Part shown: piece by piece, positions 11,972 to 25,537 of the stretch
Layout: the number at the start of each line of letters is the position of its first letter
How positions within the stretch are numbered: the first letter of the stretch is position 1
Origin: Candidatus Gastranaerophilales bacterium
GTDB lineage: Bacteria; Cyanobacteriota; Vampirovibrionia; Gastranaerophilales; Gastranaerophilaceae
NCBI GenBank assembly: GCA_944325895.1
Contig: CALVCA010000016.1
Location: 1-32,456, forward strand
Direction: 5' to 3'
DNA length: 32,456 bases
Position numbers and translations under genes: made by a program
The notes under the pieces: model-generated
The model's input: the letters and a program-made list of their open reading frames with translations, nothing else
The model's database searches: none
Told to the model about the DNA's origin: nothing

Positions 11972-12928
11972 ATGGATTTAAGAGAAAAACTTTATCAAAT
12001 GTTCATCTTAGGAACTGACGGCGGAGGATATAAAACCGCATTACAAAACAACTTAGGCGGCATTATATTTTTTACGCACGATATAAAATCCTCAGAGCAA
12101 TTCAAATCATTAATCAAAGAATGTAAATTATTAGCAAAAACCCCGCCTTTTTTATCAATCGATCAAGAAGGAGGAAGAGTTGAAAGAACAGAAAATATTC
12201 ACAAAAAATATCTATCTGCAAAATACGCTTACGAAAAAGGATTGGAATTTTTAGAGCGGCAATCGAATGAAATAGCAAAAGAATTAAAAGATTACGGCAT
12301 AAACCTTAATTTTGCTCCGTGTGTTGACGTAAATACAAACCCGAATAACCCTATAATCGGCGAAAGAGCATTTTCTTCAAAACCTGATGAAGTTATAGAA
12401 GCTGAAAAAATCGTTGTTGCTGCATTTCTAAAAAACGGTATAATACCATGCCTCAAACATTTCCCCGGACACGGAGATGCAAATGCCGATAGCCATCTTA
12501 CATTACCTGAAATAAATTTATCGCTTGAAGAAATGGAAAAAACTCATATAAAACCTTTTAGTTTAAACAATGTCGAAATGATTATGGCAGCACATCTTCA
12601 TTGCACATGTTTTGACAAAGAAAAAATCCCTGCGAGTTTAAGTAAAAATGCAATTTCTTATTTGAGAAATAAACTGAGCTTTAACGGAATAATAATTTCA
12701 GATGATATGATAATGAAAGGAGTTGCGGAATATGGGGCTGCAAATGCCATTGAAACGGGTATCCTTGCAGGTTTAAATATGTTTATTTACAGGAATTCAA
12801 ATTCCGAAACAATTGACGCAATTGAACTTGTCGCCCAAAAGGCTCAAAATGACAAACCTCTTTCCCAAAATATCGAAAAGTCCTTTGAAAAAATTATTAA
12901 TTTAAAATCAAAATTCCTAAATATTTAA
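11972..12928 (+). CDS. nagZ: Beta-N-acetylhexosaminidase, glycoside hydrolase family 3
   Basis: NagZ removes N-acetylglucosamine from muropeptides during cell-wall recycling. The 318-residue single-domain protein has GGIIFFTHD, DQEGGRVER, the family motif KHFPGHGDANADSH (His and Asp for catalysis) and the nucleophile region IISDDMIMKG. There is no signal peptide, consistent with cytoplasmic recycling. It is divergent from pgeF, with a TACAAT box near 11944. Its stop codon overlaps the prepilin gene's stop by four bases (ttaa). Confidence 0.93.
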   Translation: MDLREKLYQMFILGTDGGGYKTALQNNLGGIIFFTHDIKSSEQFKSLIKECKLLAKTPPFLSIDQEGGRVERTENIHKKYLSAKYAYEKGLEFLERQSNEIAKELKDYGINLNFAPCVDVNTNPNNPIIGERAFSSKPDEVIEAEKIVVAAFLKNGIIPCLKHFPGHGDANADSHLTLPEINLSLEEMEKTHIKPFSLNNVEMIMAAHLHCTCFDKEKIPASLSKNAISYLRNKLSFNGIIISDDMIMKGVAEYGAANAIETGILAGLNMFIYRNSNSETIDAIELVAQKAQNDKPLSQNIEKSFEKIINLKSKFLNI

Positions 12929-14113
12929 AACCACGGATAATCCTCTTTAATCTGCCAGCCATCCATATAGATAAGACGACCGCAGGTTGATGCACCATCA
13001 TCGGTTGAACATGCATTAAGATAATAAGTTCTACTATAGCCTGAAGACGTATTGCCAAATGTATATTGATACATTTGAAAAACTTTTTCCCTAAGATTAA
13101 ACATCATATAAAAAATATCTTTGCCTTTAGTATTTGGTTTTTGAAACCCATTTATATCAACCCAAAAAATTACATGTGTATATCTGATATCAGTACAATT
13201 ATCATTCTCATCGTATGCATAACAATGAGTACCTAATCCTATATTTACCAATACATTATTAGATAACAAGACTAAATATTCTTTAACTTGCGAAATTTTT
13301 CTATTTGAAGCCGGGGCATACGGACCATCATATCCTAAACTGCTTAATGAAGCATATCCGTAATCTTTGGCAACTTTTATGTATGGTATAAAATATGTTT
13401 GTGCAAACGTTGTAATAACGTCCTCTCTATTAAAATTTTCATCCTCAGTATTAGTACCTGTAATGCCGGCAACTTTCCAAGTTGTAGTATCACCATGTTC
13501 AGTCTGTGCCATGGTTAAAGCCTGTGAGATTATTGAATACGTCTGCTTTAATTTTGACAACGTTTGCTTCTTTTGATAGTTATTTATTAAAGTCGGAATA
13601 GTCATTGCCGCAACAATTCCTATAATCCCGAGGGTGATAAGAACCTCAGCTAAAGTGAAGGCGGCACGACGATTATTGTCAAACGTACCTACGTGCGTAG
13701 CACCTTCGCTCCGCTCAGGATGACGGGTAGAAGGCAAACCTGATGTGTTTACGTACTTAGTACTGTCATCCTGAACTTGTTTCAGGATCTTACCAGTGTT
13801 GAATGGTATGCAATCGTGCGGCTTAAAGATTTTTTTAAAAGATTCTTTGCTTTGCTCAGGATGACAGGTTGTATGGAATAAGTTCGTTAATAGGTTATTT
13901 TGGTGTAATACATTAACAACTTTATTAAAAATACCGCTCTTTATCTTCTTATTACTTAAACTATAATTCATTATATTAAAATTATAGTTTAATTTTAATA
14001 CATAGTCAATCGGGGTAAAAAACAATCTTAAAAACGCTTTTAAACACTTTATTCCTGAAAAATCAATTCCGGCTAAGCTTTGAGCAAGTCGCCCCCCCCC
14101 CTATCTTTTTCAT
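12925..14113 (-). CDS. Prepilin-like protein 1 with long leader; poly-G tract puts it OFF
   Basis: The mature part begins at AAFTLAEVLITLGIIGIVAA, a type IV pilin/pseudopilin N-terminus with the prepilin-peptidase site and Glu5. The C-terminal part has VDINGFQKPNTKGKDIF, like the calcium loop of GspG-type pseudopilins, and several Cys. The only well-placed start is ATG 14113, with AAGGAGG six bases upstream and an extended -10 at 14134-14139. It is followed by AAA AAG ATA and a run of ten G (14092-14101). As written, this frame ends after 16 codons (TGA at 14063-14065). With nine G it runs uninterrupted through about 150 leader residues into the prepilin. The unshifted frame has no ATG with a ribosome site near FTLAEV. 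The leader contains palindromic repeats read in frame. Confidence 0.75.
13690..13868 (-). repeat. Palindromic repeat cluster inside the prepilin 1 leader
   Basis: Three related elements: 13690-13725 (translates HPERSEGATHV on the minus strand), 13764-13790 (gtcatcctgaacttgtttca, read as ILKQVQDD), and 13827-13868 (read as CHPEQSKESFKK). These belong to the widely scattered gtcatYctgagc/gcttcaggatgac repeat type. All keep the reading frame open. Confidence 0.8.
14092..14101 (-). repeat. G10 homopolymer tract in the prepilin 1 leader
   Basis: Ten consecutive G on the coding strand, four codons after the ATG. The flank AAGATA-G(n)-CGAC matches, with the tract inverted, AAGATA-GTCGCC(n) of the leaders at 24354 and 32350. 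Runs this long are rare in a low-GC genome and are prone to slippage during replication. Confidence 0.85.
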
Positions 14114-14133
14114 AAATTTCCTCCTTTTTGTTA

Positions 14134-14139
14134 ATTATA
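14134..14139 (-). promoter_or_regulatory. Extended -10 box of the prepilin 1 gene
   Basis: TGT-TATAAT on the minus strand, 20 bases before ATG 14113, with AAGGAGG (14120-14126) in between. Confidence 0.6.
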
Positions 14140-14222
14140 ACAATACATCAGAAATATTGCAATAGCAAATTTACCATATGTAAAGATTACGTTAAAAATA
14201 GACTTTGCAAGGATTTTTATGA

Positions 14223-24353: not shown

Positions 24354-25537
24354 ATGAAAACTATTGAAATAAAAGCGGGTAAGATAGTCGCCCTCCCCCT
24401 GCAACGTGCTTAATTAGAACCTTTCGGGCTGTTTTTGGAAGTTTATTCCACGCTGCTCGTCATTCTGAGCGGAGCGGAGGTGCTACGCACGTAGACATAT
24501 TAGATTTTGCATTGTCTTCTACACGTCATTCTGAGCGGAGCGAAGAATCTTTTAATGAGATTCTTCGGGCTAAAGCCCTCAGAATGACGAATACAAATAT
24601 AACTACTTGTAAAGCGGCACACCATAACCACTTATTAACGAACTTATTACCTCATTCACTTATTCCCTCATTCCCTTCCACCCGTCATTCTGAGCGTAGC
24701 GGTGCTACGCACGTAGACACATTAGATTTTGCATTGTCTTCTACACGTCATTCTGAGCGTAGCGAAGAATCTCTTAATGAGATCCTTCGGCTGAAGCCTC
24801 AGGATGACGTATACCACCCAACCCCCAGAACATTTGACAAAAATCGTCGTGCCGCCTTCACACTCGCCGAGGTTCTTATCACCCTCGGAATTATCGGGGT
24901 CGTTGCCGCTTTGACTATTCCGACCGTTATTTCAAAAATTCAAAATATGGTGTATAAAACTGCATACAAAACCGCTTTCAGTGATTTAAATCAGGCATTT
25001 AAAATGCTTACCTATGAAGGAACTCAATTCCAAAAAATTGTTTATTTGAAAGATGAAAATGGTAACCCAAGACCCGGATATGCTCCTGCTTACGGTGAAA
25101 ATTTTAAGATTTTGGCACAATATTTTAAAGCTACTAAAACTTGTTTTGATCATAAACGTGGAGATTTATGCTGGAAATGTAAAGGCGGTGAACAGGCAAA
25201 TACAACATATACAGATAGCGAATGGAAAGGTACAAGAGAATGTACCGGAAACGCATATTCATTTGTTGATGCTCAAGGCAGAAATTGGGCAATGTATTCT
25301 AATAATGAACCGGTGTTTTTAGTAGATACAAACGGTTTTAAAGGCCCTAATCAACTCGGTAAAGACAGATTTCCATTTGCAATGGCTGCCAACAGTGAAA
25401 ACGAAAATTTTAATTCAAATGCTGCCCCTGACCACGTTGTTCCCGGCTCAAAAACCGATTACACCAATAAAGAACGCTGGTGTCCTTCCGGTGAATGCTA
25501 TTATATTTCATGGTTATTTGGAAGAAGCAGGTATTAA
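24354..25537 (+). CDS. Prepilin-like protein 2 with long leader; C-rich tract puts it OFF
   Basis: The mature part begins AAFTLAEVLITLGIIGVVAA, a pilin/pseudopilin N-terminus, and later has VDTNGFKGPNQLGKDRFPF, resembling the GspG calcium loop, plus several Cys. The only ATG with a good ribosome site (AAGGAG, seven bases) is 24354: MKTIEIKAGKIVA, then a C-rich tract (24391-24399, CCCTCCCCC). As written, it stops at TAA 24411. One added C joins it to the stop-free frame that runs from 24398 through all the leader repeats into the prepilin. Without this, the first possible start is a TTG at 24512 with no ribosome site. The nucleotides for FDxNRRAAFTLAEVLITLG nearly match those of prepilin 1, whereas the C-terminal parts differ. 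Confidence 0.75.
24391..24399 (+). repeat. C-rich tract in the prepilin 2 leader
   Basis: CCCTCCCCC directly after GTCG. It aligns with C9 in the copy at 32387-32395. The single T makes it less slippery than an uninterrupted run, so this copy may be partly locked. Confidence 0.7.
24458..24809 (+). repeat. Tandem palindromic repeat units in the prepilin 2 leader
   Basis: Two copies of a unit of about 130 bp (24458-24589 and 24683-24809). Each contains a cgtcattctgag half-site, a shared gctacgcacgtagaca segment, and a long hairpin (24524-24589 with 12-bp perfect terminal arms; 24746-24809 with one mismatch). They translate in the prepilin frame as RHSERS...ATHV and RHSERSEES and keep it open. 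The gctacgcacgtag part also occurs, on the other strand, in the prepilin 1 leader. Confidence 0.85.

Follow-up and report, generated by a model that had tools for sequence, protein, structure and literature searches.

A homopolymeric G tract as a candidate frame switch in one of many tract-bearing prepilin genes of an uncultured Gastranaerophilales gut bacterium

Introduction

What does a run of ten guanines, placed four codons behind the start of a prepilin gene, do in an uncultured gut bacterium of the Gastranaerophilales (Melainabacteria), which is related to the cyanobacteria but does not photosynthesize? Most known contingency loci come from pathogens and mucosal commensals belonging to a few groups. 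In Neisseria, a single major pilin exchanges sequence with silent copies by recombination, and a few pilus-associated genes carry tracts. Phase-variable pilus genes of that genus have been described (PMC4877100, PMC5953494), and Campylobacter jejuni possesses a 'phasome' of poly-G/C contingency loci with translational phase variation (PMC6321876, PMC8355987), in which run lengths of 9 (53%) and 10 (26%) have been reported (PMC6321876). An earlier note on the stretch of DNA analyzed here, the whole of which (32,456 nucleotides) we call the window, had proposed that a pseudopilin gene within it, prepilin 1, is a contingency gene that stands OFF in the assembled sequence, and knew of no description of this in such organisms. 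Our own search of the open-licence literature likewise found no phase-variation report in this bacterial group.

Results

The start of prepilin 1 lies on the minus strand, where AAGGAGG precedes ATG 14113 and the codons ATG AAA AAG ATA lead directly into G10 (Table 1). Translated as assembled, this start gives MKKIGGGATCSKLSRN and stops after 16 codons, and with 11 G it stops after 13; with 9 or 12 G the same ATG reads through 151 or 152 codons, respectively, into the FTLAEV core, whose first F codon is at 13659, within an open frame of 395 or 396 residues. The extended -10, the ribosome site, the start, the four codons, the tract and the 16-codon stop had all been described in the earlier note and held to the base, as did its statement that nine G would open about 150 residues into FTLAEV. 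It had added that no other ATG with a ribosome site serves the prepilin: from tract to core there is indeed no in-frame start with a Shine-Dalgarno sequence, but it had missed the in-frame ATG 13971, 9 nt downstream of TTGACT-17-TATAAT (promoter P2), which would need no ribosome site if the transcript is leaderless. A chance run as the origin of the G10 was rejected, with about 0.001 G/C runs of at least 10 expected in the window. In the manner of contingency loci, which carry G/C runs of at least 7-8, the tract lies within the reading frame, near the 5' end of its gene, the cut-off of 7 for run length being taken from PMC6321876.

Table 1. Coordinates of the prepilin 1 locus and of the other tract loci in the window
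Feature	Position	Strand	Basis or remark
Promoter P1 (predicted), TTGCAA-17-TATAAT, extended -10 (TG)	14134-14162	-	Consensus scan, 10/12; consensus only
Shine-Dalgarno (AAAGGAGG) and ATG start codon (14113-14111)	14111-14127	-	Sequence
G10 tract	14092-14101	-	Translation at 9-12 G: frame joins prepilin at G9/G12, early stop at G10/G11
Long leader, 144 codons open in core frame, with palindromic repeats (HPERSEG) inside	13660-14091	-	
Leader peptide of prepilin 1, example: LAQSLAGIDFSGIK			
Internal promoter P2 (predicted), TTGACT-17-TATAAT (14009-13981), with near-leaderless in-frame ATG 13971	13969-14009	-	11/12 match
Prepilin core and mature pilin (FTLAEVLITLGIIG...), stop codon included	12925-13659	-	Pfam N_methyl, AlphaFold2, profile match
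Prepilin 2: SD-ATG 24354, interrupted C tract CCCTCCCCC (24391-24399), FTLAEV core at 24857	24354-25537	+	
Further C-type locus, start module only: SD-ATG...GTCG-C9 (32387-32395), truncated at contig end	32335-32456	+	

Judged by its N-terminus, the product of prepilin 1 is a type IV pilin-like subunit, a designation that does not distinguish pilin from pseudopilin. The core matches Pfam N_methyl above the cut-off (7e-06) and carries the class III signal, with F at +1, E at +5 and a hydrophobic helix (FTLAEVLITLGIIG). Position -1 of the prepilin 1 cleavage site holds alanine in place of glycine (RRAA/FTLAEV); alanine is also the -1 residue in most tract prepilins of the own genome, and glycine in others of the group. 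The AlphaFold2 model (pLDDT 87.9) has a long N-terminal helix, a fold search of the pilin against the PDB gave no match at E <= 0.001, and the PDB matches of its sequence profile were pilin N-termini only. Curated family models that passed their cut-offs were likewise those of N-terminal domains only, and the type II secretion pseudopilins (GspG/GspH etc.) were not matched, the GspG score of 27 bits falling short of the 88.85 cut-off. One prepilin peptidase (Peptidase_A24, C12:19191-19583) is encoded in the genome.

This genome (G000; 1.69 Mb in 47 contigs, of which the window is contig C16) contains 68 N_methyl prepilin motifs and 37 G/C runs of at least 8, where about 2 would be expected, and for 33 of the 37 a prepilin core follows no more than 600 bp downstream (expected, about 1). 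About 30 prepilins carry a tract module, and most of these sit one step off in-frame in the assembly. The earlier note's view that a homopolymer sets the reading frame near the start of a gene for a surface filament is supported, but its scope was too narrow, with some 30 loci in the genome. We compared 174 tract loci from the own genome and its relatives, and the recurrence of the same module grammar among them led us to reject a single-gene oddity. Runs of G9 were present in 16 of 16 genomes of the genus and in 67 of the 78 genomes sampled from the family, where counts ranged from zero to several hundred matches, and the other families of the order have mostly few; runs of up to 18 G occur in other genera. 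Among the sampled family genomes, genera such as g24, g31, g33, g37 and g39 had no G9 run at all. Scanning the contigs of other genomes with the window's own flank gave no same-species match, and a second scan, with the flank of the relatives, returned MAGs but no strain pairs.

The 174 loci share one order of elements, namely Shine-Dalgarno sequence, ATG, 4-18 codons, run, leader and core, with the Shine-Dalgarno start preceding the tract in a conserved phase. At least three families of tract module occur across the genus. The G-type module of the own genome consists of the run and CGACTTGCTCAAAGC, its C-type module of an ATG, usually 37 nt and then C9, and the relatives have a CGWCTC type with G9 or G10 as well as a G10-G12 type. 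In the CGWCTC family, the start-to-tract phase is 0 (a multiple of three) in 85/85 loci and the core frame is 2 in 82/85, despite core distances that range from 29 to 691 nt. Leaders are open in 165 of the 174 loci overall, and in the core frame they are open in all 26 of the own genome (0.5 expected from composition) and all 45 of G005 (2.5 expected), the other two frames being almost never open (0/26 in the own genome). An excess at the third codon position is strong in the cores and is not seen in the leaders; conservation of the leader as a protein was accordingly rejected. Since the leaders are open in the core frame without such an excess, they appear to be translated with their residues unconstrained, which, we infer, fits a leader piece that is cut off.

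Palindromic repeats (RHPERSEG / RHSERSEESLNEILRLKPQ) are inserted in frame in prepilin leaders of the window (13660-13910 and 24512-24850), and some paralogues carry duplications of GATHVGTFDNNRRAAFTLAE. The L113-L154 leaders of G005 (alignment A1) contain a stem of about 22 pairs, of which 11 have pair-keeping changes on both sides, and between L120 and L185 a segment between such stem arms matches in inverted orientation; the segment may flip or insert both ways while the leaders stay open. Rickettsia palindromic elements are likewise palindromic repeats in frame within coding sequence, a likeness in description; here the repeats sit in prepilin leaders.

One-base changes of the run shift these genes in and out of frame, both when prepilin 1 is translated at 9-12 G and among the open loci of the CGWCTC family, in which 9 G are out of frame (n = 69), 10 G in frame (n = 11) and 11 G out again (n = 2). 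In the G-type loci of the own genome, whose paralogues have the same downstream flank, 9 G are in frame, and 10 and 11 are out; the C-type loci are mostly C9, with one C8 and one locus in frame. Overall, 23 of 174 loci are in frame, which is below one third, although the loci are related and the comparison is therefore only indicative. Run length also differs between otherwise alike loci, in 8 of 47 close pairs with alike flanks and at one orthologous locus in two related MAGs (L120 with G9, out of frame, versus L185 with G10, in frame), where the flanks are 97-98% identical and a neighbor gene is shared. Counting runs in related genomes had been suggested as a check by the earlier note, and the lengths do vary among paralogues and orthologous loci, with the frame changing to match. 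Out-of-frame pilins without P2 have a median dN/dS of 0.22 over 20 pairs, and so are not simply dead but under purifying selection.

The geometry of P2 (TTGACA/T-17-TATAAT, followed after 6 or 9 nt by an ATG) was found in 58/174 tract loci, prepilin 1 included, with about 0.1-0.2 expected per shuffled set, and is absent in the other 116. The P2 ATG is nearly always in frame with the core, and the hexamers and the 17-nt spacing persist while the spacer sequences differ. In the tract-less locus L063, and in G005 loci including L140, L149, L153, L155 and L161, this ATG gives a classical prepilin leader of 9-12 residues. Between tract and P2 the core frame has no stop in 56 of the 58 P2 loci, versus 7.7 expected. 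From its sequence, P2 may express prepilin 1 whatever the tract length; because a conserved promoter with an in-frame ATG may do so, the OFF state proposed earlier stands for the upstream Shine-Dalgarno start and is not secured for the pilin.

Elsewhere in the window, prepilin 2 has a broken run and a leader open in the core frame, and its offset from that frame equals that of its C9 relatives; it is possibly a locked-off copy. Locus L056 is similar; the short-run loci L059 and L076 are in frame. The third start module (Table 1) is common to about 19 other loci of the own genome. The window contig ends 61 bases past this C9 start module and contig C11 starts inside such a run, which suggests that assemblies are interrupted at these repeats.

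The genome has two MutS-family genes, so that a loss of mismatch repair finds no support as the explanation. The runs of G000 are one-sided in orientation, 80 of 86 G8 matches being reverse, i.e. nearly all runs are C on the contig plus strand; contig orientation should be arbitrary, and GC skew did not account for it. At L060 (own genome, C7:12202), and at L144 and L146 (G005), G runs adjoin or lie inside glycan-type genes, which by eye resemble aminotransferase, glycosyltransferase and cytidylyltransferase families, recalling glycan phase variation elsewhere.

Discussion

We regard the G run of prepilin 1 as probably a contingency-locus frame switch, in a gene belonging to a genome-wide set of such prepilins. 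This reading builds on the observed anatomy, the conserved phases, the length differences among paralogues and orthologues and the purifying selection on out-of-frame members, and it supposes that slippage would occur within one population and that the pilins would be expressed. Transcription would begin at P1 and translation at the Shine-Dalgarno ATG, proceeding for four codons to the run, the length of which replication slippage would alter in single-base steps. With 9 or 12 G, translation would carry on across the long leader, otherwise unconstrained, and reach the prepilin, from which the prepilin peptidase would then cut the leader away; with 10 or 11 G it would end within 16 codons. Cells would therefore differ in which few pilins they make, a putative role in pilus composition. 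Several points count against a switch: the small share of loci in frame, with most of a family at one length, a pattern that random slippage alone would not predict; the capacity that P2 could have to make the pilin without it; and the broken run of prepilin 2, whose leader is nonetheless open. A leader of about 150 residues would also be unusual for a type IV prepilin.

The pilin could instead come mainly from P2 and its near-leaderless ATG, the upstream start and its tract being a second, alternative or vestigial one, in which case tract length would alter the length of the leader or the level of product and not turn the gene on or off. The recurrence of the P2 geometry far above the shuffled expectation, and the classical short leaders at L063 and several G005 loci, speak for such an arrangement, which we nevertheless hold to be rather unlikely, given that the tract loci without P2 keep an open frame and purifying selection, and that translation from P2 alone does not need the open stretch between tract and promoter.

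It is quite improbable, in our estimate, that the tract is fixed and that RNA polymerase or the ribosome slips on it in a programmed manner, with a fraction of the products entering the prepilin frame. Such slippage would agree with the selection on out-of-frame genes and with the single length, one step off, that they share (C9 in most of the own C-type, G9 in most relatives), but the sign of the shift varies (-1 for the own G10, +1 for C9 and the relatives' G9, -1 for the G11 of another family), some members need no shift at all, a single base separates orthologues, and other genera have runs of up to 18 G. We give hardly any credence to lengths that are off by one base through assembly error, or to out-of-frame genes that are dead relics. 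Homopolymers are error-prone and some contigs end at or near tracts (C11, C16), but the same pattern is present in MAGs whose contig names imply different assemblers (NODE, k127/k141, IDBA scaffolds), both flanking frames are conserved, and the out-of-frame pilins have a dN/dS of about 0.22.

Beyond the frame switch itself, a wider picture is possible, though we consider it doubtful, in which dozens of prepilins in Gastranaerophilaceae are selectively held one slip off frame, each cell showing a small random subset, and some loci are layered on an internal leaderless promoter that would give pilin with and without the long leader.

As in Campylobacter jejuni, G/C runs of at least 7 occur in the 5' part of surface-related genes, the run length sets the frame, lengths peak at 9 and then 10, and each genome has many loci. 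Unlike in that organism, one family, the prepilins, dominates here, the run lies in a long leader without amino-acid constraint, some loci have an internal promoter, the host belongs to the Gastranaerophilales, and slippage within a strain is what we infer. Neisseria shares homopolymer or recombination switching that alters type IV pili; here, in contrast, there are many separate prepilin genes, each with its own switch.

In this uncultured gut lineage, a neighbor of the cyanobacteria, contingency-type loci dominate a family of prepilins. Annotation pipelines that rely on one assembled tract length would overlook dozens of pilin starts per genome or put them in the wrong place and, if slippage is confirmed, pili would vary between individual cells of these gut bacteria.
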